A stretch of DNA of 64,000 nucleotides from Sandaracinaceae bacterium. GTDB taxonomy: Bacteria; Myxococcota_A; Polyangia; Polyangiales; Sandaracinaceae. The position numbers and the translations under genes are program-made. The DNA lies in NCBI GenBank assembly GCA_019637095.1, contig JAHBWG010000004.1, forward strand, positions 62,001 through 126,000. Direction: 5' to 3'. Below are positions 4,507-43,332 of this stretch, in pieces (positions within the stretch are counted from its first letter, which is position 1; each line of letters opens with the position of its first letter). Under the pieces are notes generated by a model, which was not told the DNA's origin, made no database searches, and worked only from the letters and a program-made list of their open reading frames with translations.

Positions 4507-5811
4507 TCAGTTCGTGGAGCCGCGGGGAGGGCTAGGAGCCGCGAGCGCTCCGGTGATCCGAGCGCGGTCGAGCTTGCCCGAGGGGGTCCGCGGCAAGGCA
4601 CCGACCCGCACGATCACGCGGGGGCGCTTGAAATCCGCCAGGCGGGGGCGGAGGAACGCGCGCAGCTCGTCGTCGGAAGGGAGGCGGGGCCCGGCGATCA
4701 TCGCCGCCACCCGCTGGCCCCAGGTCGGGTCCGCGATCCCCACCACCGCGGCCTCTGCGATCCCAGGGTGCGCCAGCAGCGCGGCCTCGACCTCCAGCGG
4801 GTCGATGTTCTCCCCCCCGGTGATGATCCGGCGGTTCGATCGCCCGAGCACGTGGAGGTGGCCCTCGCGGTCGAGCCGTCCGACGTCTCCAGTGCGATAC
4901 CAGCCCTCGGCGTCCAGCGGGCTGTCGTCGTCGAGGTAGCCGAGCATGCGGGCCGGGCTGTGCACCTCGATCACGTCCTCGGGCCCCAGCCGCAGGCGCA
5001 CGCCGGGCAGCGGTGGCCCGACGCCCTCCGCGCGCTCGTCCCCGAGGCGCTGGGTCGCCGCCTGCCCGCAGGTCTCCGTCGCACCGTAAGTGGGCAGCAG
5101 CGGCCAGCCGCGCTCCCTCGCCCGGGTCAAGAGCACGGGCGGCGTGGCGTCCCCGCCGAGCAAGACCGCGCGCAGGCATCTCGGCGGGGCGCGCTCGGTG
5201 AGCTGGGCGAGCATCGCGGGGACCAACGAGGTGATCGTCCCCTGGTGGGCGTCGATGAGCCCCCAGAGAGTATCGGAGTCGAATCGTTCGGGAGCCAAGA
5301 TCACGGGCCGTCGCGCGTAGAGGGCGCGGGTCACGACGGAGAGGCCCCCCGCGTGGGCGAGCGGCAGGCACAGGACGGCGCGGTCCGTGGCCTCCCAAGG
5401 GAGCGCGGCGGCGTGCATGCGCGCCGCCGCGACGAGTGCATCGTGAGCGATACGAACGATCTTCGGCCGCCCGGCGCTGCCGGACGTGAAGAGCAGGAGC
5501 TGTTCGGCGGCCGGGGTGGCTCCGTGGCCGTCCTCGGTCGCGCCGGTGCGGGCGAGCGCGTCGTCGCGCTCGGCGGCGGTCCAGCGCGCGTGGAGCAGGG
5601 CCAACCCCACGCGGCGCTCGAGCGCGCCGACGATCCGCGCGAGGTCGTCGCGCGCCGGCCGTGGCGCGAGCCAGACCCGTCCGTCGGTTGGCTGCGTCAG
5701 GTCCATCGCTCGCGCCGCGAGCTCGGCGAAGGTCATCACCCCGCGGGCGTCGATCAGTGCTGGTCGGTCGGGCACCTCCGCGGCCGCGCGGAGGATCGAC
5801 AGATCGCTCAA
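4507..5811 (-). CDS. menE: o-Succinylbenzoate-CoA ligase
   Basis: This 434-residue member of the acyl-adenylate-forming family activates o-succinylbenzoate to its CoA ester in menaquinone synthesis. The P-loop-like motif FTSGSAGRPKIV is near residue 115, the adenine-binding YGATET near 257, GYLDDDSPLDAEGWYRTGD near 310, and the C-terminal catalytic lysine lies in RTPSGKLDR. The start is TTG at 5811, whose TTGA overlaps the menC stop, so translation is coupled. It is the last gene of the menaquinone run. Length and context make MenE much more likely than a general fatty-acyl-CoA ligase. Confidence 0.93.
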   Translation of the reverse strand: MSDLSILRAAAEVPDRPALIDARGVMTFAELAARAMDLTQPTDGRVWLAPRPARDDLARIVGALERRVGLALLHARWTAAERDDALARTGATEDGHGATPAAEQLLLFTSGSAGRPKIVRIAHDALVAAARMHAAALPWEATDRAVLCLPLAHAGGLSVVTRALYARRPVILAPERFDSDTLWGLIDAHQGTITSLVPAMLAQLTERAPPRCLRAVLLGGDATPPVLLTRARERGWPLLPTYGATETCGQAATQRLGDERAEGVGPPLPGVRLRLGPEDVIEVHSPARMLGYLDDDSPLDAEGWYRTGDVGRLDREGHLHVLGRSNRRIITGGENIDPLEVEAALLAHPGIAEAAVVGIADPTWGQRVAAMIAGPRLPSDDELRAFLRPRLADFKRPRVIVRVGALPRTPSGKLDRARITGALAAPSPPRGSTN

Positions 5812-6848
5812 AACCGGAGCTCCAGCCCGAGGCCCGGGAGCTCGGGCGGGTCGATGTAGGTGGGCTCGATCCACGGCGTACAGAGCCCGTCCGAGAGGGG
5901 CAGCAGGCCCGGGTGCTCGCCGAGACCTGGCGCCTCGCCGCCGAGGGCGAGCGCGAGGTGCGCGATCGCCGCGCGTGCGATCGGGCCCTCCATCAGGTGG
6001 CTCAAGACCACGCGCCGGCCGGCGGCGCGGGCGCGCGCGGCGAGGGTCGCGCAGCGCCCCAGCCCCCCGAGGAGAGACGGCTTGAGCACCACCGTGTCGA
6101 TGTGGGCGCAGCGGAGCGAGCGCCCCAGCGCGACGTGTCCGCGTGGGCCGGCGAGCGACTCGTCGACCGCGAGCGGAAACGGCACCGCGTCCAGGCTCGT
6201 GACGACGTCGAGGGGGGCCGGCTCCTCGAGGAACCGCGGGCGATACACATGAAGCGCTTCGAGCCGCGCGGGAAGCTCCGCGGGCTCGAGCGCGCCGTTC
6301 GCGTCGAGCCGCAGCTCGGCGTCCGGCAGGAGCGAGCGCACGGTGTCGAGCAGCCAGCCGTCGAACGCGCCCGGGCGCCCGATCTTGACCTTCACGACGT
6401 CCGCGCCGAGCGCCACCGCCTCCCGCGCCGACTCGACGAGGTCGCCCTCGCTCGAGCCCCAGAGCGTGACCGCGACCGGGAGGGACTCGACCCGATCGGC
6501 CCAGATCGTCCAGAGCGGGACGCCGAGCTGGCTGGTCCAGAGCGAGAGCAGCGCGGTCTCCGCGGCGAACCGGGCCGAGGGCAGGCGCGGGTCGATCTGC
6601 CCGACGACGCGCGCGATCGACCGGAGGCTGCGCGGCGCGCGCGTGGGCCACGCCACCTTCGAGAGCGCCTCGCGCGCCTCGGCGGCGCTCTCGGGCGACA
6701 TCCCCGCGAGCGGCGCCGCCTCGCCGATCCCGATCCCGCCGCGGCCGTCGCTCAGCAACAGACGCACGCTCGAGCGCGCGCGCCAGCGCTGCCGGGCGTT
6801 GGCGGTCGTCGGGATGCTCGCGTGCAGCGTCTGGAGCTCTGCCTCCAT
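5808..6848 (-). CDS. menC: o-Succinylbenzoate synthase
   Basis: This 346-residue enolase-superfamily enzyme dehydrates SHCHC to o-succinylbenzoate. The catalytic lysine pair is in VKVKIG. Metal-binding acids are in LRLDANGAL, FLEEP and VDESL, and a C-terminal lysine is in VVLKPSLLGG. Length matches the family. It is followed with a 4-bp overlap by menE and preceded by menA after a 34-bp gap, the largest gap inside the menaquinone run. Confidence 0.93.
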   Translation of the reverse strand: MEAELQTLHASIPTTANARQRWRARSSVRLLLSDGRGGIGIGEAAPLAGMSPESAAEAREALSKVAWPTRAPRSLRSIARVVGQIDPRLPSARFAAETALLSLWTSQLGVPLWTIWADRVESLPVAVTLWGSSEGDLVESAREAVALGADVVKVKIGRPGAFDGWLLDTVRSLLPDAELRLDANGALEPAELPARLEALHVYRPRFLEEPAPLDVVTSLDAVPFPLAVDESLAGPRGHVALGRSLRCAHIDTVVLKPSLLGGLGRCATLAARARAAGRRVVLSHLMEGPIARAAIAHLALALGGEAPGLGEHPGLLPLSDGLCTPWIEPTYIDPPELPGLGLELRF

Positions 6849-6882
6849 CGGGCGGCAAACGTGGGCCGCGCAGGGCCCAGGC

Positions 6883-7752
6883 TCAACTCGACAGCGTGAT
6901 CCCCGTCGTGGAGAGCGCGCCGTAGACCAGGAGGAGCTGCGCGGTGTGCGCGAGCGTGGCGTTCAGCGCGCGCCCCTCCTGCTGCGCGACGCGGCGCACG
7001 AGCGCCGCGGCGAGCGGCGCCGACGCGAGCGGCAAGAGCACCCACGGCCCACGCCCGAGGGCGACGAGCGCCACCGGCGTGGCATAGGCGAGGGCGACGA
7101 GCCCGGCGTACTCCGCGACCGCCCCGCGCCGGCCGAGGCGTACGGCGAGCGTGCGCTTGCCCGCGACCGCGTCGGTCTGCCGGTCGCGGAGGTTGTTGAC
7201 CACGAGGATCGCCGTCGCGAGCGCGCCGACCGGCACCGCCGCGAGCCAGGCCAGGGCGGGCGCCTCGAGCGTCTGCACGTAGGTCGTCCCGACGACGGCG
7301 ACGAAGCCGAAGAAGACCATCACGAACAGATCGCCCAGCCCGTGGTAGCCCAGCGGGAACGGCCCGCCCGTGTACGCGATCCCGCTCGCGACCGACGCGA
7401 CCCCGATCGCGATCACCGGCCAGCCCGCGGTCCACGCGAGGTAGACGCCGGAGAGGGTCGCGAGCCCGAAGGCGAGCGCCATCCCGACGCGCATCGCGCG
7501 CGGCGAGATGAGCCCCGCGGCGACCGCGCGCGTCGGCCCGAGCCGCGCGTCGGTGTCCGCGCCCTTCTCGGCGTCGAAGACGTCGTTCGCGAAGTTCGTC
7601 CCGATCTGGATCCAGATCGCGCCGAAGAGCGCGGCGAGCGCGGGGCCCCAGCGAAGGCCGCCTTCGGCGTGCGCGCACGCGGTGCCGACGGCGACGGGGA
7701 CGAGCGCGGCGGTCAACGTCGCGGGCCGCGCGGCGAGGACCCAGCGCTTCAC
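6883..7752 (-). CDS. menA: 1,4-Dihydroxy-2-naphthoate polyprenyltransferase
   Basis: A 289-residue UbiA-superfamily integral membrane protein that prenylates 1,4-dihydroxy-2-naphthoate. The first Asp-rich motif is [15 protein letters not shown] and the second is [17 protein letters not shown], with about eight hydrophobic helices between and after them. The GTG start at 7752 overlaps the menH stop (GTGA). The polyprenyl donor is presumably made by the synthase encoded upstream in the same run. Its position is where menB sits in the E. coli menFDHBCE order. Confidence 0.93.
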
Positions 7753-8447: not shown

Positions 8448-10156
8448 GCGCGCTCCTGGATCGCCCGTACGAGCGCGGCGGCGCCGTGCGGCGGGACGAC
8501 CACGCGGACGAGCGTCGCGCCGCGTCGCGCGAGCGCCTCGTCGAGGGCGCCTTCGAGCGCGCGCGTGCCGGCCGCCTCGGCGTACGCGAGCCCGAACGTG
8601 CGCGCGGCGGCGGCGAGGTCGAGCGCGGTCGGCGTGGTGAAGAGGGTCATGTCGACGCCCGCGCGCGCGACCGGCAGCTCCTCGAAGATGCGGCCGCCGC
8701 CGTTGTCGAGGACGACGAGCACCAGCGGTCCCGGCGCGTGCGCGGCGAGGGCGAGCGAGCCGACGTCGTGCGCGAACGCGACGTCACCCAAGAGCGCGAG
8801 GGTCGGCTCGCCGCTCGCGGCCGCGGCGCCCGCGGCGCCCGCGAGCGTGCCGTCGATGCCGTTGACGCCGCGCTGCGACAGGATCCGCAGCCGCCGCCCG
8901 CCGCCGCGGACGTAGCGGTCGACGTGTCGGATGGGGAGGCTGTTGCCCAGGACCAGCCGCGCGCCCTCGGGCGCGCGCTCGAGCACGCAGCGGGTCGCGT
9001 GCGCCTCGCCGAAGGGCGCGTCGGCGAGGCAGGCCTCGACCCGCGCCCACGCGCGCTCCTCGAGCACGGCGAACGCGTCGTCCCCACGCTCGCGCGTCAC
9101 GCCGACCACGCGCGCTCCGATCGCGTCGAGCAAGTCGCCGAGCTCACCGAGCACGACGGCGCGCGCCGTGCCGGCCGGGTCGCGCCGGCGCGTTCCGCCG
9201 ACCACGAAGCGCGGGACTCGCGCGCCCCGACCGAGCCACTCGAGGGTGCGGCTGCTCGTCGGCGTCGCGCCGACCTCGAGGACCAGGTCGGGCGTCGGGC
9301 TCTCGCCGAGCCACCAGTCGAAGGCGTCCGCGGTGCGCACGCCGTCGCGCGGTCCGAAGCGGAGCTGGCTCGACGCCTCGGCGAGCACGGTCACGCCCAC
9401 GCGGCGGGCGAAGTCGAGGACGGTGTCGCGGGGGGCGTCCGCGCCGAGCGGGCCCGCGTAGAGGACGGGGCGCTCGGCGCGCGCGAGCGCGTCGGCGAGC
9501 GCGGCGAGCGCGGCCGCGTCGGGGCTCGGCCGGGCGCGCGGTGCGGGCCCGCCGAGCGCGAGCCCGGCGGCGCGGTCGACGAGCGCGCGCTCCTCGTCGG
9601 TGCGCGCCTGCACCGGCTCGAGGGGCTTGTCCGCGGGGGCGTTGAGCTGGACCGGGCCGGGCTCGGGGCCCAGCGCGCGCTCGACCGCCCAGCGCGCGGT
9701 CTGCGCGAGCGTGGCGAGCGCCGCGTCGGTGCCCTCGGGCAGCCCGAGGTCGGCGAAGGCCCGCGCGTGCACGCCGTAGAGGCGGGTCTGGTCCGTCGTC
9801 TGCGGCGCCCCGGCGCGCACGAGCGCGGCGGGCCGGTCCGCGCTCAGCACGAGCAGCGGCAGGCCGGCCTCCGACGCCTCGATGACGGCGGGGTAGTAGT
9901 GCGCGGGTGCCGTCCCCGACGTCGAGAGGAGGAGCGGCGGCGCGCCACCGGCGCGAGCCAGCCCGAGCGCGAAGAAGCCGGCGCTGCGCTCGTCCACGAC
10001 GACGCGCAGCGTGAGCGCCGGGTGTCGCGCCGCCGCGAGCACGAAGGGCGTCGAGCGCGAGCCCGGGCTCGCCACCACGTCGCGAACCCCCGCGGCGGCC
10101 AGCGCGCCGAGCAGCACATCGGCCCACACCGTGAGGAGGTTCGCGGGCGCGCTCAT
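8444..10156 (-). CDS. menD: SEPHCHC synthase (ThDP-dependent)
   Basis: This 570-residue ThDP enzyme condenses isochorismate with 2-oxoglutarate. N-terminal SPGSRS and the [13 protein letters not shown] segment are typical of MenD. The C-terminal half has RGVNGIDGT, the cofactor-binding [14 protein letters not shown], and [19 protein letters not shown] at 10156 overlaps the menF stop as ATGA. Length is close to the usual 550-580 residues. It is a soluble cytoplasmic enzyme feeding MenH. Confidence 0.95.
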
Positions 10157-29254: not shown

Positions 29255-30913
29255 TCACGGCGTGAGCGTGACGGATCCCGTGGTGGTCAGCGCGCTGGCG
29301 GCGCTGGGGTAGAACGTACCCCCGGCGATCGAGAGGCCGCCGGTGTGTGCGTTGATGCGAAGGCGCCCGGCGCCGCCGCCGCCGCCGCCGCCGTTCTGGG
29401 CGCCGGCGCCGTTCTGTCCGTTCCCGCCGCTCGCGTCCGAGCCCGCGCCGCCCGCGCCGCCGTTCGAGCCCCCGGGCCCACCGGGGGCGGGGACCGGATC
29501 CGCGCTGCCGTCGGTGCCGCTGTAGACGTTTGGACTGCACAGGTTGCAGCGCGCGCCCGCGCCGCCGCCGCCACCGTTCGCCGCGACGGTGCCCGTGACG
29601 CGGACGGTCCGGCCCTCGATCAGGACGGCGCCGCCGGAGCCCGCGCCCGCGCCCGCGCCGGAGTCGGCGGTCGTCCAGCCCGTGCTGCCGCCCTCGCCGG
29701 CGGCGCCGCTCGCGTCGATGAGCCCCGTCACCTCGACCTCGCCGCCGCAGGTGAGCTGGACCGCGCCGCCACCCGCGCCGCCGCGTCCGCCGTCGTTGTC
29801 GGCGCCCGCGCCGCCCCCCGAGCCCGCGTGGAGCGGGACCAAGCTCGGCGTGCCGTAGATGCCCCCCACGAGGCCACCGCCGCTCGAGCCGCCCTGGCCG
29901 CCGAGCGAGCCGAAGCCGGCGCCACCTCCGCCCGCGTCGTTGGCGCCGGTGCCGACCGCGCCGCCGCCGCCCGCGCCGCCGCCCGTGCCCGCGGCGCCGC
30001 TGCGGTTGCCGCCGCTGCCCGCGCCCGCGGCGCCGACGCGGCCGCTCCCGCTCACGTCGATCGTGCCCGCGATGGTGCAGTCCCCGCTGACCAGGAGGAC
30101 GAGCGCGCGCGTGCCCGTCGCGGCGATCCGCCCGCCGTTGGCCACGCTGAGTGAGCCCATCGCGAACACGCCGAGGGCGACGCCTCCCGCGGGAGAGGAG
30201 CCGAGCGGCTGGAACAGGATCCCGCTCGTCGCATCGAGCCCGGTGCCGGCGGCGCGCACCGCGACGCCGTCCGAGCGCGTGATCGCGCCGTTGCCGGTGT
30301 TGAAGGTCATCGTCACGCCCGACGGAACCAGGCCCGCGTGCGTCCCCGCGTCGAGCGCGACGCGCGTGCCCACGTTGGACGGGACGAGCGCGCGGCACGT
30401 CGCGGCGGCGCAGCCGAACGGGCAGGGGATGCTGCTCACCGTGCCGTCGGCGGCGCAGGTGACGAGCGCGTCGCCGACGCAGCTCGTGCCGACCGGCGCG
30501 CAGCCCGCGTCGTCGGGTCCGGCGTCCGAGCCCGCGTCGTCGGGCCCGGCGTCCGTCCCCGCGTCGTCGGGCCCGGCGTCCATACCGGCGTCCACACCCG
30601 CGTCGTCGGGCCCGGCGTCCGAGCCCGCGTCCTCGGGGCCCGCGTCGTCGCTGCCGGCGTCCATGCCCGCGTCGTCGGTGCTCGCGTCCATGCCCGCGTC
30701 CACGGGGCCAGCGTCTTCGGGCCCGGCGTCGCGCGGGCCAGCGTCTTCGGGCCCGGCGTCGTCGTCGCCGCCGTCGCCGCCGCCCGCGTCGCTCGACCCT
30801 GCGTCTCGCATCGGGCCCGCGTCCTGGACCCCGGGTGCGGTCCCGCTCCGGTCGAGGATGCAGCCGGAGAGCAGCGTGGCGAGGACGAGGACCGGGACGG
30901 CGGCCGACTTCAT
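29255..30913 (-). CDS. Gly-rich cell-surface lipoprotein with DAG repeats
   Basis: A 552-residue lipoprotein: lipobox LLSGC with Cys18. Residues about 30-140 are an Asp-Ala-Gly/Pro repeat tract (DAGPDDAG and variants, around twenty units). A short disulfide-type domain follows (CAPVGTSCVGDALVTCAADG..CPFGCAAATC). The rest is Gly/Ala-rich with parallel-beta-like repeats (GGGGGAGARC, GGAGGAGSDASGG). The sequence suggests an extended surface stalk carrying a beta-helical head. Function unknown. The larger open frame upstream is antisense or shadow sequence and was not used. Confidence 0.75.
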   Translation of the reverse strand: MKSAAVPVLVLATLLSGCILDRSGTAPGVQDAGPMRDAGSSDAGGGDGGDDDAGPEDAGPRDAGPEDAGPVDAGMDASTDDAGMDAGSDDAGPEDAGSDAGPDDAGVDAGMDAGPDDAGTDAGPDDAGSDAGPDDAGCAPVGTSCVGDALVTCAADGTVSSIPCPFGCAAATCRALVPSNVGTRVALDAGTHAGLVPSGVTMTFNTGNGAITRSDGVAVRAAGTGLDATSGILFQPLGSSPAGGVALGVFAMGSLSVANGGRIAATGTRALVLLVSGDCTIAGTIDVSGSGRVGAAGAGSGGNRSGAAGTGGGAGGGGAVGTGANDAGGGGAGFGSLGGQGGSSGGGLVGGIYGTPSLVPLHAGSGGGAGADNDGGRGGAGGGAVQLTCGGEVEVTGLIDASGAAGEGGSTGWTTADSGAGAGAGSGGAVLIEGRTVRVTGTVAANGGGGGAGARCNLCSPNVYSGTDGSADPVPAPGGPGGSNGGAGGAGSDASGGNGQNGAGAQNGGGGGGGAGRLRINAHTGGLSIAGGTFYPSAASALTTTGSVTLTP

Positions 30914-30948
30914 CTGGGCTCTACACAGTCGCGCGCTGCTCCGAGATG

Positions 30949-32991
<2,043 letters not shown>

Positions 32992-33049
32992 GCGCGGGGT
33001 CTATCACGGCTCCCGCCCGGCGCGCCTTCGGGCTATGAGGAGGGCGCCG

Positions 33050-33856
33050 ATGCAGATGCGCGCCGGGATCTATCGGGTGCTGCGGGTCGTCGTGGTCGGC
33101 GCGGCGGCGCTGCTCGCGTATCGCTGGCTCGCGCCGATGGGGCTCGGGTGGCTGGTGCTCGCCATCGCGGGGCTCGCGGCCGCGGGCTGGCTCGGCTACG
33201 TCGGGTGGCGCGCGCGGCGCGAGCGGGCGCTCGACGCGCTCGCCGATCGCGCCGCCGTCGCGGTGCTCGACCCGCCGGCGCGGCCGGGGGCGATCCGCGA
33301 GCTGACGGCGGCGTGCGCGCGTGCGCGCGGGCGACGACCTGCGGAGCACGCGCGGCTGACGCTCGTGCTCGCGACGCTGCTCGAGGCGGACGGCGACGCG
33401 GAGGGCGCGCTCGAGGCGCTCGCGGAGGTCGGCGGCGAGGGGCTCGCGCCGCCGCTGCGGGCGATCGTCCGGCACGCGCGCGCGGTCGCGCACCTGTCGT
33501 CGGGAGACCCAGAGGCGGCGCGTGCGGCGCTCGACGCGGGCGCGGAGCCGTCGGGGGACGCGGGAGTCGAGCTGCGGATCCGGCTCCTGCGCGGGGTCAT
33601 CGCGGCGGAGACCGGGGATCCGGCCGAGGCCCGCCGCGTCGCGGAGGAGGCGCGCGAGGAGGCCCTCGACGACGAGGATCTGCGCGTCGAGGCACGCGTG
33701 CTCGAGGCGGTCGCGCTCGACGCGGCGGGCGAGGGCGCCGAGGCGGTCGCGCGGATGCGCCGGCTCGGCGACGAGATGCTCGACGTGCTCTCGGTGCTCG
33801 GGCTGCCGCGCGTGCGTGCGCTCGCGACGCGCGCGCTCGCGGCGAGCACCGAGTGA
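33050..33856 (+). CDS. Membrane protein with TPR-like repeats
   Basis: A 268-residue protein: two hydrophobic helices at residues 8-55 (VVVVGAAALLAYRWLA and WLVLAIAGLAAAGWLGYVGW) followed by an Ala/Glu/Arg-rich helical region patterned like TPRs (LATLLEADGDAEGALEALAEVG). ATG at 33050 has a perfect AGGAGG six bases upstream and was chosen over an ATG at 33035. It is divergent from uvrB, 58 bp away. Function unknown; a scaffold role is likely for the fold. Confidence 0.72.
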   Translation: MQMRAGIYRVLRVVVVGAAALLAYRWLAPMGLGWLVLAIAGLAAAGWLGYVGWRARRERALDALADRAAVAVLDPPARPGAIRELTAACARARGRRPAEHARLTLVLATLLEADGDAEGALEALAEVGGEGLAPPLRAIVRHARAVAHLSSGDPEAARAALDAGAEPSGDAGVELRIRLLRGVIAAETGDPAEARRVAEEAREEALDDEDLRVEARVLEAVALDAAGEGAEAVARMRRLGDEMLDVLSVLGLPRVRALATRALAASTE

Positions 33857-33868
33857 CGCGTGTCGAAG

Positions 33869-33895
33869 ACTGTCGACCGATCGAGCGCCCGCGCG
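33869..33895 (+). repeat. Dispersed intergenic repeat, copy A
   Basis: CTGTCGACCGATCGAGCGCC with flanks lies between two convergent genes. It matches copies at 50622 and 52742. In copies A and B a second shared block (CCGAAGAC followed by TCA) ends on the stop codon of the next minus-strand gene. Confidence 0.5.
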
Positions 33896-33931
33896 ACCCA
33901 CCCCACCCTCGAGGCCGGCGGTGCCGAAGAC

Positions 33932-36914: not shown

Positions 36915-37463
36915 TCAGGGCGCCGGGCACTCGCAGGTCGCGTCGGCCTCGCGGGCGCTCTGGGCGCCGCAGCACTCGAACATCAGCTCGCGTAGGCGGG
37001 CCCGGGCGCGAAAGAGGCGCACCGACGCGGCGTTCGGGGTGAGGCCGAGGGACTCGGCGGCGTCGTTCACGCGCTCGCCGCCGACGTCGACGCGCTCGAC
37101 GAGCGCGCGGGTGAGCGGCGGGAGCCGCTCGAGCAGCCGCGACGCGCAGCGGCAGCCGGGGTCGGCCGGCAGCTCGGTCGTCAGCTCGGGCGGCGCGTCC
37201 GTCACGAGCTCGCGCCGCCGCGAGGCGCGCACGCGCGCCCCGGCCCGGCGCACGACCCGCCCGAACCACGCCGGCAGGCGCGTGAGGTCGCGCACCTGAC
37301 CGACGTCGCGCAGCCCGTCGGCCGTCGCCTCCGAGAGCGCGTCGTCCGCGTCCGCCTCGGAGAGACCCAGCCGCACGAGGCGCGCGCGCAGCGACCCGCG
37401 CTCGGCCGCGACGTAGGCCGCGAGCCGAGCGCGCCGTTCGTCGACGCTCAGCGCCGCGGACAC
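36915..37463 (-). CDS. ECF sigma factor with Cys-rich linker and tail (CorE-like)
   Basis: A 182-residue sigma-70-family protein: region 2 at about 12-85 (SEADADDALSEAT, LPAWFGRVVRR) and region 4 at about 110-165 (LPPLTRALVERV, DAAESLGLTPNAASVRLFRARARL). Six cysteines are placed unusually: Cys104-x-Cys106 in the linker, Cys164-Cys165, and Cys177-x-Cys179 in the tail. Myxobacterial CorE-type ECF factors are controlled by metal binding to such linker and C-terminal cysteines. The GTG start at 37463 lies inside the metallothionein-like gene. No anti-sigma gene is visible, which fits self-sensing. Confidence 0.8.
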   Translation of the reverse strand: MSAALSVDERRARLAAYVAAERGSLRARLVRLGLSEADADDALSEATADGLRDVGQVRDLTRLPAWFGRVVRRAGARVRASRRRELVTDAPPELTTELPADPGCRCASRLLERLPPLTRALVERVDVGGERVNDAAESLGLTPNAASVRLFRARARLRELMFECCGAQSAREADATCECPAP

Positions 37464-37612
37464 CGGCACTCGGGCGGGCAGCCGCAGTTCGGCTCGCACC
37501 GGCACTCGGGGCCGCAGCAGCACTCGCCCTCCCGGGGCGTGCGCCCGTTGGCGGGGCAGTTGCACTCCGGACCGCAGCACGGCCCGCACGCGTTCTTCGA
37601 TTCGTCGCTCAT
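37448..37612 (-). CDS. Metallothionein-like Cys-rich small protein
   Basis: A 54-residue protein with 14 cysteines and no aromatic residues. Cys are at 9, 12, 13, 17, 19, 31, 32, 33, 37, 39, 43, 45, 49 and 51, arranged as CxxCC, CxC and CCC. Two related halves each carry CCGPEC(N/R)C. The composition and CxC spacing match soft-metal binding proteins such as metallothioneins. A perfect AGGAGG (37621-37626 on the complement) precedes the ATG by eight bases. Its last 16 bp overlap the ECF sigma gene, so they are co-translated. Metal identity is unknown; copper, zinc or cadmium are candidates. Confidence 0.8.
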   Translation of the reverse strand: MSDESKNACGPCCGPECNCPANGRTPREGECCCGPECRCEPNCGCPPECRCPRR

Positions 37613-37639
37613 GACCACGACCTCCTGTGTCGTCTGGGG

Positions 37640-37679
37640 GACGAGCTGCGTCGAATCTTACTTCCATCGCCAGCGATGG
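37640..37679 (-). promoter_or_regulatory. Candidate ECF-type promoter and operator for the metallothionein/sigma pair
   Basis: Reading the minus strand, GGAAGT (37660-37665) and CGTC (37640-37643) are separated by 16 bases, like ECF -35/-10 elements. A perfect palindrome CCATCGC-TG-GCGATGG (37664-37679 on the complement) overlaps the -35. This would allow autoregulation by the encoded sigma. It is inference from pattern only. Confidence 0.4.
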
Positions 37680-37731: not shown

Positions 37732-40700
37732 TCAGAGCTGCTGGGCGACGCGCCGCCGGAAGCGGATCGCCGGGTCGGACACCCAGAAGCGGGCGAGGTC
37801 GGCGACCAGATCGTCCGATCCGACGTCGGCGCCGAGCGCCTCGTACGCGGCGAGGAGATCGTCGGCGACGAGGAGCGCGGCGCGCGCGGCCATGCGCCGC
37901 ACGTCGCGCACCCAGCGCGCCACGTCGCGCGTCGGCGCGGTCGCGAAGCTCGCGGCGGCCTCTTGCACGCGCCCGCGAGCGAAGAAGCCGATCGCCTTGC
38001 CGACGCGGCGCGTCTCGCGCTCGAGATCCGGCTCGTCCTCGCGCAACGCGAAGCCCGGCTCGAAGTGGCGGACCGAGGCGACGAGGATGCGCTCGAGCGT
38101 GATCGGGTCGATGCGATCGACGGGGTGCAGCAGCCGGCTCATGAGCGCGAGCGGCCGCGCGAGCGCGAACGCGAGCACCGGATCGCGCGCGTCCTCGAGG
38201 CGCGTCGGCACGACGAGCGTCGGCGGGCTGCCCGGGAAGACCGCCGCCCAGTCGAGCTCGCTCGAGCTCACCACGTAGAGGTCGTACTCGGGCACCCCGA
38301 ACACGCGCCCGATCCGATCGGCGAACGTGCGCAGGGGGTGCGGATCACCCTGGCGGATGCGGTCGCGCTTGGAGACGCCGTGCCGGTCGTGGTCGAAGCC
38401 CTCGAGCTTGCCGAGCACGTCGGCGAGCGCGTGCACGAGCCCGGTCGCCGTCTCGTTCAGCGCGCCGTGATCGATGATCTGCTCGAGGCCTTGGCGGCCG
38501 AGGATCCCGCTCGGTGCGCGGGCGACGAGGGTGTGGCGAGCGCGCACCGTCTTGATCTCGGCGTCCGTCGCCTGCTTCATCGCGACGAGCGGCGTCAGCG
38601 CGATGGCCGCGCCGTCGGGCTCGCCGGTCGCGCGGAACACGTCGGCGAGCGCGCGCCACGCGTTCGCGTTCCACGCGTCGATGCCGAGCAGGCGCCGCAC
38701 CTCGACGATCGCCTTGTCGTTCGCCGACACGTCGCGCAGCGCCTTGACCAGCGCGAGCGAGATCGTCGGGTCGGCGGGGCACTCCTCGATCCCCTCGCGC
38801 AACGTCGCGATCGCGCGGTCCGGGCGGTTGTGCGCGGCGCCGAAGACCCACGCGAGCTCGCGATAGGTCGCGGACAGCGCGTTGCCGCCCTTGCCGCGGT
38901 TGCGCTCGACGAACGTCATCAGGCCAGTCGCGTAGTGATCCCAGCTCGCGTGCTCGGGCGCGTTCGCGATCAGCTCCTTGTAGACCTCGGCGGCGCGCTG
39001 CGAGGGGCCCTGGATGCCGAGCGCGGAGAACGCGCTCGCCGCCGCCGCGGCGTTCTGACCGCGCGCGCGCTCGAGCTCCGCGAGCTCCGTGAGGACGTGC
39101 GCCTTCTGCCCGTCCGTCTTGACGACCTGCATGAGCTTCTTGGCGAGTCGCAGCGCCTCCTCGTGTCGGTCGCGCAGGCGCTCGAGCCGCACCAGCGCGG
39201 CGAGCGCGGGCTCGTTGTCCTCGTCGCGCGAGAGCACCACGCGCAGGCTCCGGATCGCGCGCTCCGGGTCGGCGAGGCGCGTCTCGGCGAGCGTCGCGAG
39301 CTTGAGGTGCGCGTCGAGCAGGCGCTGATCGCGCGCCTTCGGGATCAGCCGCTCCAGGGCGAGGGCTGCGTCCTCCCAGCGTCCCGCGCGCTCGAGGTAG
39401 TCGGCCAGCTTGGCGAGCACGCCGAGGTCGTCGGGCGCCTTCTCGAGCGCGCGCTCGGCGGAGACGACGGCCGCGGCGAGGTCGTTCTGCGTCGCCGCCT
39501 GGAGATCGGCGACCGCGAGGTGGAGCTCGGCGGCGCGCTCGCGGCGGCGGCACGCGAGCGCGGCGCGGCCGAGCAGCTCGATGAGCAGCGGCGCCTGGTC
39601 CGGGCGGCTCAGGGTCGCGCGCAGGCCGGCCGCGGCGCGCGCGTCGTCGGGGTCGAGGGAGATGGCCTGCGTGTAGTCCTCGGCGGCTTCGTCGATCTGA
39701 GCGGCCGTCAGCCGCATGTGCGCGGCGCGCAGGAGCAGCCCGACCGCCGCGTAGCGATCGCCCGTGACGTCGCGCTCGCGCTTGGAGGCCTCGCGCGCCG
39801 CGGCGGGGTCCTCCGCGAGGAGCGCGGCGCGGCTGAGCCCGCGCGTCGCGCCGAGGCTCGCGGGGTCGAGCGCGATCGCGGCGCGGAAGGCGGCGAGCGC
39901 CTCGACGGGGCGCCCCTTCGCGAGCAGCAGCTCGCCGACGCGCGTCTGGTGGAACGCGCCGAGGCGCGAGTCCGACGCGACCTCGGCGAGCCGCGCCTCC
40001 ATCTCGAGCTCGCGCGCATGATCGCCGCGCGCGCGCGCGTCCGCCGCGAGCTGCTCGAGCGCGTCGGGGTCGCGCGGGGCGGTCTGAAGGATGCGCTCGG
40101 CGATGGCGGCGGTCGGCGCACCCGCCGCGGCCCGCGCGCGCGCGAGCTCGTGCAGCGTCGCGAGCGTCGCGCGCTCGTCGTCGAGCACCTCGGCCATCTT
40201 CTCGTACGTCGCGGCGAGGCCCGCGTCGTCGCGCGTGCGGCCGTAGATCGACTCGACGGCGAGCAGCGCGCCGACGTGATCGGGGTGCCGCTCGAACACC
40301 GGCCGGAACGCCTCGAGCGCGGGGCCGATCGCGCCTTGCTGCTCCGCGCGGACGAGCGCGGCCCGCAATGAGGCTTGCAATCGTAGAAACGGATCGGTGT
40401 GCGCCGCGGCCTCCGCCTCGAGCGCTTCACCGAGCTCGTTCCACTTGCTCGCCTCGGTCAGGAGGCGCGCGCGCGCGTCGAGCGCCGGGTGATGCAGCGG
40501 GACCTCGTCGAGCGCGCGCTCGTAGAGCCCGAGGGCGCGCTCCGTGTCGCCGAGCCGCTCTTCGACCAACGCGCCGAGCTCGGTCGCCGCGCGGGCCCGC
40601 TCGATCGGCGTGCGCAGCCGACCGATCCGCTGCTCGATCGCCTCGGCGAGCTCGGGCCACGCCCCGACGCGGCGGAGCGCGAGGAGCAGCGCCTCGCGCG

Positions 40701-43332
40701 CCGGCTCGAACTCCGGGTCGAGCTGCAGCGCGGCGCGGTACGCCGCGATGGCGGCCGCCGCGTCGCCGATCTGCGTCTCGTGGATCTCGCCGATGCGGTG
40801 GTGGAGGCGGACCTTGTCTGTCGCGGTGGGCGTGAGCGGCAGGAGGCGGCCGTAGACGGCGACGAGCTCGGCCCAGCGCCCGGCGTCCGACAGCAGCTCG
40901 GCGAGGGTCTCGAGGCTCGCGCGGTGCTTGGGCTGCTTGGCGAGCAGCGCCTCGAGCGCGCGGATCGCGGCGCCGGGATCGCCGCACTCGTAGGCGGTCA
41001 GCGTCGCCGCGCGGTGCAACAGCGCGGCGGCGCGCGCGGGATCCTTGGTCTGCTCGGCTTCCTGTCGCAGCGCGGCGACGACGCGCGCGGGCTCGCCGGC
41101 GCGCGTGCCGGCGCGCACGATCGCGTGGAGCGCCCCGCGGTGCGTGGGCGCGCGCTCGAGCACGCGCTCGTACGCTTCGAGCGCGCCGCGCGCGTCGAGC
41201 AGGCGGTCCTCGCGCACCGCGCCGAGGCGGAACAGCCACATGATCGCCTCGTCGTCGTGCGCCGCCCGCGCGACCGCGCGCTCGTAGAGCTCGGCGAGCT
41301 CGGTCCATCGCGCGGCCGCCGCGTAGAGCCGCGTCAGCGCATCGAAGGCGCGGTGGTGGTCCGGATCGAGGCCGAGCGCCTGCGCGTGATGGCGAGCCGC
41401 GCCCACCGGGTCGCGCAGCTCGCGCTCGAACAGCTCGCCGATCTTGGAGTGGAGCTCCGCGCGCTCCGCCGGCGAGCTCACGCCGTCCTCGACGCGGCGC
41501 TCCCACACCGCGACGACCTCCGCCCAGCGACCCGCCTGCCCGAGCAGACGCGTGAGCGCGAGCGCGGCGGCGCGATGGCCCGGCTCGAGCGTGAGCGTGC
41601 GCTGATACCAACGCTCCGCGCTCGCGGGCTCGCCGAGGAGCTGGTCGTAGACGTGCCCGACGTGGTGGCAGAGCCGCGCCTGCTCGGCCGCGTCCGTGAT
41701 CGCGTCGACGAGCAGGATCAGCGCGTCGATCTCCTCTGCGTGGCGGCCCGCGTCGCGGTGGAGCCGCGCGAGCTCGCGCAGGATCGACGGCTCGCCGGGC
41801 GCCGCCTCGAGCGCCTCGCCGAGCGTCTCGATCGCGGCCTCGGCGTCGCCCATGAGGCGCTCCTCGATGCCCGCGATCGAGACCAGCATCGAGAGCCGCG
41901 CGCTCGCGTCCTCGGCGAGCGAGTGCTCGGTGAGGAGCGCCTCGACGAGCTGAGGCCAGCGGCGCTGGGTCTTGCCGAGGCGCTTGACGTGCGCGAGCGC
42001 GTCGGACGCGTGCGGGTCCGCCTCGAGCGCGGCCTCGTAGAGGGCCGCCGCCTGCACCGGGTCGCGCAGCTGTGTCTCGGTGAGCTGCGCGCGCACGGCG
42101 GTCCACGCCGCGCGCAGCGCGGGGCTCTCGACCGCGTTGGCGAGCTGCGCGTACGTCGCCTCGAGCGGGCCCCAGGCCTTGTCGCGGCGCAGCGCGCGCT
42201 CGATCGCCTTGAGGATCACCACGTTGCCCGGGTCGAGCGCGAGGGCCTCGCGGTAGACGCCGAGCGCGGGCTGCGCCTGGCGCAGCTCCTCCTCCATCAG
42301 CCGCGCCTTGCGGTAGAGCAGGCGCGCGCGCTCCCGAGGCTCGCGGGTGAGGGCGATCTCCGCGTCGTAGAGCGCCGGCATCGTCGCCCATCGTCCGGTG
42401 GCGCCGAGCATGCGCCGCGCGCCGCGGATCGCCGCGGCGTGGTCCGGTCGCGCCCGCAAGGCGTCTTGATAGTGCTGCGCCGAGCGCGCCGGGTCCTCGA
42501 GGCGCAGCTCGTAGAGGCGGCCGAGCTCGTAGTGGAGCTGCGCGGAGCGATCCGCGTCCGCACCACGCGCGAGCTCCGCCTCGCAGAGATCGCGCAGGGT
42601 CAGATCCGCTTCGCGCGCCTCGTCGTCGGGCGAGCGGAGCGCGGGCATCTCGGTCGTCGCCTCGGTCGGCTCCTCGGGGGCGCTCGGGGGTCGCCCCACC
42701 GGGGGCGGTGCCACCGACCCGCGGCGTGGTGGCGCAGATGGTGTGGCTCGGGGCGCGGGCTTGGCGGCGGCCGCGACCGCCTTCGCCTCGGTCGCCGGCG
42801 TCTTCGGCGCGGCGGGAATCTTCGCCTCCGCGGGAGCCTTCGGTGCCGGCGCCGGGGTTCGCGGCGGTGGCGGGGGGACCGACGGTGTGCGCGGCTCGGG
42901 CAGGCTCGGGCGCTTGCGCGGGGTGCGCGGCTTGCTCCCCGACGGCCTCTCGGGCGCGCCGACGGCGACGGGCGGCGCGATGGCGACGGCGGACTGTCGG
43001 GACGGCGGCGGCACCGTCGGCGGCTCGGGCTTCTCCTCGGGCGCGACCTGCGCGGGGTCGGTCGGGTGCTCGTCGAGCTCGGTGAGGTCCGCGTGCTCGG
43101 GCGGAGGCATCGGCGCCGGGACGCCGCTCAGCGTCTTCTCCTTCTTCTTCGGCGCCGGCGGTCGGCCCGGCCGGCCGAGCCCGGGAGCCGGCGGAGGCCG
43201 CGAGATGGGCTGGAGCTCTGCGACGTCGAGCTCACCGGTCGGCGGCTCGAACGCCTGGAGCTCCTCGAGCCCGAGCTCCTCGGTGCCGTCCCCTCGGCGC
43301 CGTCGCTTCTTCCCCTCGACCTCGTCCGCCAT
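37732..43332 (-). CDS. Giant TPR-repeat protein
   Basis: This 1866-residue protein has an N-terminal basic patch (KKRRRRGD) and a Pro/Ala/Lys-rich disordered region to about residue 215. It then runs as TPR-type helices over about 1400 residues, with frequent WAELV.VYER and LDPDHHRAFDAL-type units of about 35 residues. A distinct C-terminal part of about 200 residues (RTFADRIGRVFGVPEYDLYVVSS, ARPLALMSRLLHPVDRIDP) looks globular and is not recognised. No signal peptide or transmembrane helix is evident, so it is a cytoplasmic scaffold. It is separated from the metallothionein promoter by only about 50 bp. Confidence 0.85.
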   Translation of the reverse strand: MADEVEGKKRRRRGDGTEELGLEELQAFEPPTGELDVAELQPISRPPPAPGLGRPGRPPAPKKKEKTLSGVPAPMPPPEHADLTELDEHPTDPAQVAPEEKPEPPTVPPPSRQSAVAIAPPVAVGAPERPSGSKPRTPRKRPSLPEPRTPSVPPPPPRTPAPAPKAPAEAKIPAAPKTPATEAKAVAAAAKPAPRATPSAPPRRGSVAPPPVGRPPSAPEEPTEATTEMPALRSPDDEAREADLTLRDLCEAELARGADADRSAQLHYELGRLYELRLEDPARSAQHYQDALRARPDHAAAIRGARRMLGATGRWATMPALYDAEIALTREPRERARLLYRKARLMEEELRQAQPALGVYREALALDPGNVVILKAIERALRRDKAWGPLEATYAQLANAVESPALRAAWTAVRAQLTETQLRDPVQAAALYEAALEADPHASDALAHVKRLGKTQRRWPQLVEALLTEHSLAEDASARLSMLVSIAGIEERLMGDAEAAIETLGEALEAAPGEPSILRELARLHRDAGRHAEEIDALILLVDAITDAAEQARLCHHVGHVYDQLLGEPASAERWYQRTLTLEPGHRAAALALTRLLGQAGRWAEVVAVWERRVEDGVSSPAERAELHSKIGELFERELRDPVGAARHHAQALGLDPDHHRAFDALTRLYAAAARWTELAELYERAVARAAHDDEAIMWLFRLGAVREDRLLDARGALEAYERVLERAPTHRGALHAIVRAGTRAGEPARVVAALRQEAEQTKDPARAAALLHRAATLTAYECGDPGAAIRALEALLAKQPKHRASLETLAELLSDAGRWAELVAVYGRLLPLTPTATDKVRLHHRIGEIHETQIGDAAAAIAAYRAALQLDPEFEPAREALLLALRRVGAWPELAEAIEQRIGRLRTPIERARAATELGALVEERLGDTERALGLYERALDEVPLHHPALDARARLLTEASKWNELGEALEAEAAAHTDPFLRLQASLRAALVRAEQQGAIGPALEAFRPVFERHPDHVGALLAVESIYGRTRDDAGLAATYEKMAEVLDDERATLATLHELARARAAAGAPTAAIAERILQTAPRDPDALEQLAADARARGDHARELEMEARLAEVASDSRLGAFHQTRVGELLLAKGRPVEALAAFRAAIALDPASLGATRGLSRAALLAEDPAAAREASKRERDVTGDRYAAVGLLLRAAHMRLTAAQIDEAAEDYTQAISLDPDDARAAAGLRATLSRPDQAPLLIELLGRAALACRRRERAAELHLAVADLQAATQNDLAAAVVSAERALEKAPDDLGVLAKLADYLERAGRWEDAALALERLIPKARDQRLLDAHLKLATLAETRLADPERAIRSLRVVLSRDEDNEPALAALVRLERLRDRHEEALRLAKKLMQVVKTDGQKAHVLTELAELERARGQNAAAAASAFSALGIQGPSQRAAEVYKELIANAPEHASWDHYATGLMTFVERNRGKGGNALSATYRELAWVFGAAHNRPDRAIATLREGIEECPADPTISLALVKALRDVSANDKAIVEVRRLLGIDAWNANAWRALADVFRATGEPDGAAIALTPLVAMKQATDAEIKTVRARHTLVARAPSGILGRQGLEQIIDHGALNETATGLVHALADVLGKLEGFDHDRHGVSKRDRIRQGDPHPLRTFADRIGRVFGVPEYDLYVVSSSELDWAAVFPGSPPTLVVPTRLEDARDPVLAFALARPLALMSRLLHPVDRIDPITLERILVASVRHFEPGFALREDEPDLERETRRVGKAIGFFARGRVQEAAASFATAPTRDVARWVRDVRRMAARAALLVADDLLAAYEALGADVGSDDLVADLARFWVSDPAIRFRRRVAQQL

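Follow-up and report, generated by a model that had tools for sequence, protein, structure and literature searches.

Conserved pairing of a putative metallothionein gene with the gene of a CorE-like ECF sigma factor

On the minus strand of the 64,000-nucleotide stretch of Sandaracinaceae DNA analysed here (the window), a metallothionein-like gene overlaps the start of the gene for a CorE-like ECF sigma factor and, judged by comparison across genomes, the two make up an operon that is conserved across diverse bacteria. CorE-like sigma factors and metallothioneins are each already known kinds of protein; no description of their pairing was found in the open-access literature searched, whose coverage was partial, so that its absence is not established. 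We propose that the pair is an autoregulated metal-detoxification operon under the control of a CorE-like sigma factor that works without an anti-sigma factor, a reading to which we give a probability of roughly 0.7. The parts of this model that were observed are the two genes, the conservation of the pair, selection on the small gene as coding sequence, a conserved promoter-like motif and an asymmetry between the two ribosome sites.

The small gene lies at 37448..37612 (minus strand), starts with ATG and encodes the 54-residue product MSDESKNACGPCCGPECNCPANGRTPREGECCCGPECRCEPNCGCPPECRCPRR, which has homologues adjoining the sigma genes of relatives. Cysteines make up 14 of the 54 residues (26%), CxC and CC motifs are present and F, W, Y and H are lacking, so that the composition criteria for a metallothionein (small, about one-quarter Cys, CxC/CC, zero aromatics) are met. 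A Shine-Dalgarno sequence, AGGAGG, is located at 37621..37626 (minus strand), 8 nt before the ATG, and its duplex energy of -11.0 is among the strongest of the set; the initial annotation had described such a 14-Cys protein with a perfect Shine-Dalgarno sequence correctly. No other ORF of 40-120 aa in the window reaches 20% Cys, and none of this kind occurred among 60 first-order random 64-kb sequences. A small ORF this rich in cysteine is therefore more than chance. In alignment A3, 11 columns are invariant and ten of them hold Cys, while the sequences vary freely outside this Cys ladder. Among three species of one genus, dN was 0.075-0.112 versus a dS of 0.65-0.94 (dN/dS 0.1-0.17), and in the other two reading frames over the gene dN exceeded dS. 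In a second trio, the two distant pairs gave dN of 0.09 versus dS of about 0.46; the closest pair (0.038 versus 0.06) has only 7 differences and carries little information. As far as substitution patterns can tell, the frame is under purifying selection in relatives. Neither the window protein nor any of five relatives was matched significantly by a metallothionein profile of Pfam or NCBIfam (Metallothio_5 came closest, E=4), with the caveat that HMMER scores can be depressed by Cys-rich composition. The product is probably a metallothionein-like scavenger, with metal binding and the identity of the metal inferred in the absence of binding data, and the gene apparently defines a metallothionein family outside the existing classification.

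The sigma factor gene occupies 36915..37463 (minus strand), with its start at GTG 37463 or, alternatively, GTG 37469, and its stop at 36915. Depending on the start, the overlap with the small ORF is 16 or 22 nt. The two were initially described as fused by overlap; the overlap was confirmed, and a literal fusion was not, each gene being read in a frame of its own. Pfam recognized Sigma70_r4_2 in the product (E 8e-10) and region 2 only weakly (E 0.35), and a profile built from 27 relatives matched solved ECF sigma structures (best 3e-18). The AlphaFold model has a mean pLDDT of 87.5, with three sigma2-type and four sigma4-type helices and low confidence in both the linker and the C-terminal tail; its Foldseek matches are ECF sigmas. 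The protein contains sigma2 and sigma4 domains only, as expected for the CorE-like type. The linker carries a CxC motif (CRC; C104 and C106, 37146..37154, minus strand), which is invariant in alignments A1 and A4, and the C-terminal tail carries CC...CEC (C164, C165, C177 and C179; 36927..36974, minus strand), of which C165, C177 and C179 are invariant in A4. These Cys motifs are as first annotated, and C104-x-C106, C165, C177 and C179 are all invariant among the 27 relatives. On homology and the predicted fold, this is a CorE-like sigma of ECF type, its sigma activity being inferred.

To place the window sigma among known metal-sensing sigma factors, we compared it with CorE and CorE2 of Myxococcus xanthus and with OrbS of Burkholderia. 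CorE (ECF44/ECF238-type, Cu(II)-activated) shares the sigma2-sigma4 architecture, the linker CxC, the Cys-rich C-terminus and the lack of a nearby anti-sigma gene. CorE2, activated by Cd/Zn, has the same architecture and an anti-sigma-free metal response. Both are described as metal-activated through the linker CxC and the Cys-rich tail without an anti-sigma (PMC8999054, PMC3107203, PMC9023288), and a review states that both Cys elements are essential in CorE-like sigmas (PMC8999054). The tails differ. That of CorE is reported to hold Cys 181, 184, 189, 192, 194 and 206, and Cys 181, 184, 192 and 194 to be invariant across 21 CorE-like proteins; C184A made expression constitutive and non-peaking, and C189A nearly abolished induction (PMC3107203). 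The window tail has the equivalents of 181, 192 and 194 and, ahead of 181, one additional Cys, and it lacks counterparts of 184 and 189; in the window sigma and its sisters L069/L070 the tail has diverged further. Because the Cys184 equivalent is absent, we call the window sigma CorE-like and not a member of the described CorE set: the architecture and linker CxC behind the original CorE-like label hold, and a Cys invariant in that set is missing. Its sensing chemistry may differ from that of CorE, to judge from the two missing residues. The CorE2 tail is different again (Cys173-Cys-x3-Cys-x2-Cys-x-Cys, quoted in PMC9023288). OrbS, an iron-sensing sigma, likewise has an on-board C-terminal Cys metal sensor, but Fe(II) inhibits rather than activates it and it controls siderophore genes. 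As CorE targets, PMC3107203 names a multicopper oxidase, P1B ATPases and an HMA protein; a metallothionein is not among them. The window genome also encodes a second CorE-like sigma with the classic CorE tail, CGACAARGCVDCTC (locus L244, G000:C13:70000-84000, at 5602-7493). Its gene, on contig C13, is divergent from a gene that fuses HMA and multicopper-oxidase domains. A TGTAATG-N-CGTC motif lies in the interval, and the arrangement recalls that of cuoB in the M. xanthus CorE system.

We then examined the conservation of the pair. Upstream DNA of 200 bp or more was available for 141 CorE-like sigmas. Of these, 39 have a same-strand Cys-rich ORF directly upstream, whereas such an ORF lies on the opposite strand of that upstream stretch in 3 and downstream in 1. 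In a tree built without the Cys-rich tail, the window sigma belongs to a clade of 21 members (SH-aLRT 95), and a metallothionein-like ORF is directly upstream in all 20 for which DNA was available. Absence or frameshift of the small frame in relatives with the same sigma would have refuted the proposed pairing; with 20/20 clade members paired and purifying selection on the frame, it was not refuted. Besides Myxococcota, the clade takes in MAGs that carry the labels Alphaproteobacteria, Gammaproteobacteria and Acidimicrobiia. Outside the myxobacteria, several contigs are short fragments of MAGs; that of the Roseibium MAG measures 514 kb. The evidence for spread outside Myxococcota is confined to named contigs. 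No plasmid match was found for either the Roseibium sigma or its metallothionein. When the phylum was sampled more widely, a metallothionein profile matched six genomes outside the order, and all six matches adjoin a CorE-like sigma. Separately, a 9.4-kb Gammaproteobacteria MAG contig (L081) carries two metallothionein-sigma pairs, an arrangement that suggests duplication of the cassette.

The pairing mostly follows one tail type. An adjacent metallothionein accompanies 26 of the 37 sigmas with a Cys184-less tail, 9 of the 89 with both 184 and 189, and none of the 8 with 184 but without 189. This link (Fisher p 3e-11) was considered as independent evidence and rejected, as it comprises at most four independent pairs on the sigma tree, where the Cys184-equivalent trait changed about four times; with so few pairs, common descent accounts for the association as well as function does. 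The co-occurrence looked for in Myxococcota was found and reaches beyond that phylum, with about one-third of sigmas of this tail type (11/37 by the criterion used) lacking an adjacent copy. One of the exceptions, G035, has no adjacent copy and carries its metallothionein on another contig with the promoter motif present (L155); in G105 the metallothionein is placed divergently (L152). At L092 and L114, also among these exceptions, the motif is retained but the Cys-rich ORF immediately before the sigma is shortened (9 and 6 Cys), which looks like a scavenger in the process of being lost. In the MAG locus L085 (G015), at about 9720-9935, a slip of one base following CCCGPAC apparently interrupts the metallothionein frame, which may reflect either a sequencing error in the MAG or true decay. 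The metallothionein-like genes of G019 (L162) and G024 (L163) have no promoter motif. With the profile for CorE-like sigmas, no match passed the threshold in G019, and those in G024 were weak (best 9.9e-19); the two metallothionein-like genes may have a different regulator.

A bipartite promoter-like motif, GTAA-N17/18-[CT]GTC, is found upstream of 37 of the 39 paired metallothionein genes, compared with a mean of 0.57 and a maximum of 3 in dinucleotide shuffles. Among the two loci that the exact pattern misses is the window, which carries TGGAAG-N17-CGTC, one base off the family consensus TGTAAG, 54 nt before the ATG; from the relatives' placement and spacing, we predict the -35 element TGGAAG at 37661..37666 and the -10 element CGTC at 37640..37643 (both minus strand). 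TGKAAG-N17-CGTC matches once in the 64-kb window versus 0.16 expected. The stricter pattern TGTAAGRWT-N13/14-YGTC occurs once in each of the whole genomes G045, G037, G032 and G015, each time at the metallothionein-sigma operon, and is absent from G000, where the operon site is the TGGAAG variant. Additional strict matches in G035, G112 and G113 are not followed by a Cys-rich ORF. The motif is also kept by some unlinked metallothioneins (G035, G134 and G093), and it precedes metallothionein-less CorE-like sigmas of two other tail types (10/80 and 6/8), so it probably represents a family-wide CorE-like promoter. We regard the motif as a putative ECF-type promoter; its recognition by the window sigma is inferred from co-conservation only. 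The original suggestion that the sigma drives the scavenger gains support from this shared motif before the small gene.

The upstream neighbour of the pair is a TPR-like ORF on the minus strand (37732..43332) that ends 120 nt before the start of the small ORF, and a ThrRS-like ORF converges on the sigma gene, ending 10 nt from its stop; both names were judged by reading translations only. No anti-sigma gene was seen among these listed flanking ORFs, and no recurrent neighbour suggesting an anti-sigma was present within 8 kb across 20 relatives' loci, in agreement with the proposed absence of such a factor. Besides the pair, only one family recurs within 8 kb in at least three of the 20 loci, a protein-kinase-like ORF of varying position. 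Ribosome-site energies average -6.9 kcal/mol for the metallothionein genes versus -3.3 kcal/mol for the sigma genes (p 1e-5).

In the proposed operon, the linker CxC and the Cys-rich tail would let the sigma sense a thiophilic metal directly, without an anti-sigma, and the metallated sigma would bring RNA polymerase to the promoter ahead of its own operon. The metallothionein would be the first and best-translated product and would sequester the metal; the sigma would be made in smaller amount, probably with translational coupling across the overlapping ends. As the metallothionein withdrew metal, the sigma would switch off and the response would end. Metal binding, promoter recognition by the window sigma, the feedback and the identity of the metal, supposed to be a Cu/Zn/Cd-type ion, are the inferred part of this model, and the steps beyond promoter conservation are extrapolated from the biology of CorE, CorE2 and metallothioneins. 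Against the model stands the complete lack of binding, expression or phenotype data; the missing Cys184 and Cys189 equivalents, the deviating TGGAAG of the window and the 11 of 37 sigmas of this tail type without an adjacent metallothionein also weigh against it. A more specific proposal, possible but on balance not one we would favour, is that the pairs are cross-phylum minimal cassettes in which an altered-sensor sigma has about one target, its own operon, and is turned off as the metallothionein strips its metal, with the loss of Cys184, a residue that CorE needs to inactivate itself, permitting a sustained response that the scavenger would end.

Instead of a scavenger, the small protein could be mainly a regulatory partner, either a metallochaperone or a functional anti-sigma, which would bind to the sigma and supply metal to its Cys-rich tail or take it away. 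The tight pairing of genes that overlap or nearly do so would fit, yet the motif also precedes unlinked or distant metallothioneins, the metallothionein sequence is free to vary outside the Cys ladder and the metallothionein ribosome sites are the stronger ones; we consider this unlikely. Metallothioneins can scavenge oxidants, and both proteins are Cys-rich, which leaves room for a sigma that responds to thiol oxidation and not to metal, with the small protein as a thiol buffer. This is quite improbable, given that metals are the signal for both characterised sigmas that combine a linker CxC with a Cys-rich tail, and that the other CorE-like sigma of the genome adjoins an HMA/multicopper-oxidase gene, a metal setting. 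Known bacterial metallothioneins, SmtA/PmtA/NmtA and MymT, resemble the window protein in being small and Cys-rich with CxC and CC motifs, and the regulators named for them in the papers examined belong to other families and include no sigma factor: RicR for MymT and, for NmtA, AzuR, an SmtB/ArsR-family repressor (PMC8790569). By analogy, a housekeeping sigma or another metal regulator might drive the small gene, with the CorE-like sigma merely co-transcribed. We give this even less credence, since the conserved motif has the ECF form and recurs before other CorE-like sigmas, falls almost exclusively at this operon in four genomes and is lacking where the profile for CorE-like sigmas gave nothing or only a weak match. 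That the small ORF is a compositional accident can practically be dismissed: it does overlap an open sigma frame in GC-rich sequence, but no such ORF arose in the random sequences, dN/dS is low and homologues occur across phyla.

If the operon model is true, a bacterial metallothionein is under its own dedicated metal-sensing sigma, a scheme not found in the literature searched. The two-gene cassette is simple enough for rebuilding in a laboratory strain, and its Cys184-less tail, a naturally occurring change in the CorE sensor, could be used to probe the role of Cys184. Members of this metallothionein family could escape short-ORF cut-offs. Elsewhere in the window, the ORF list contains a long open frame at 29255-33901 (minus strand) with Asp-Ala-Gly repeats and then a stretch rich in Gly; its product may be a surface protein.
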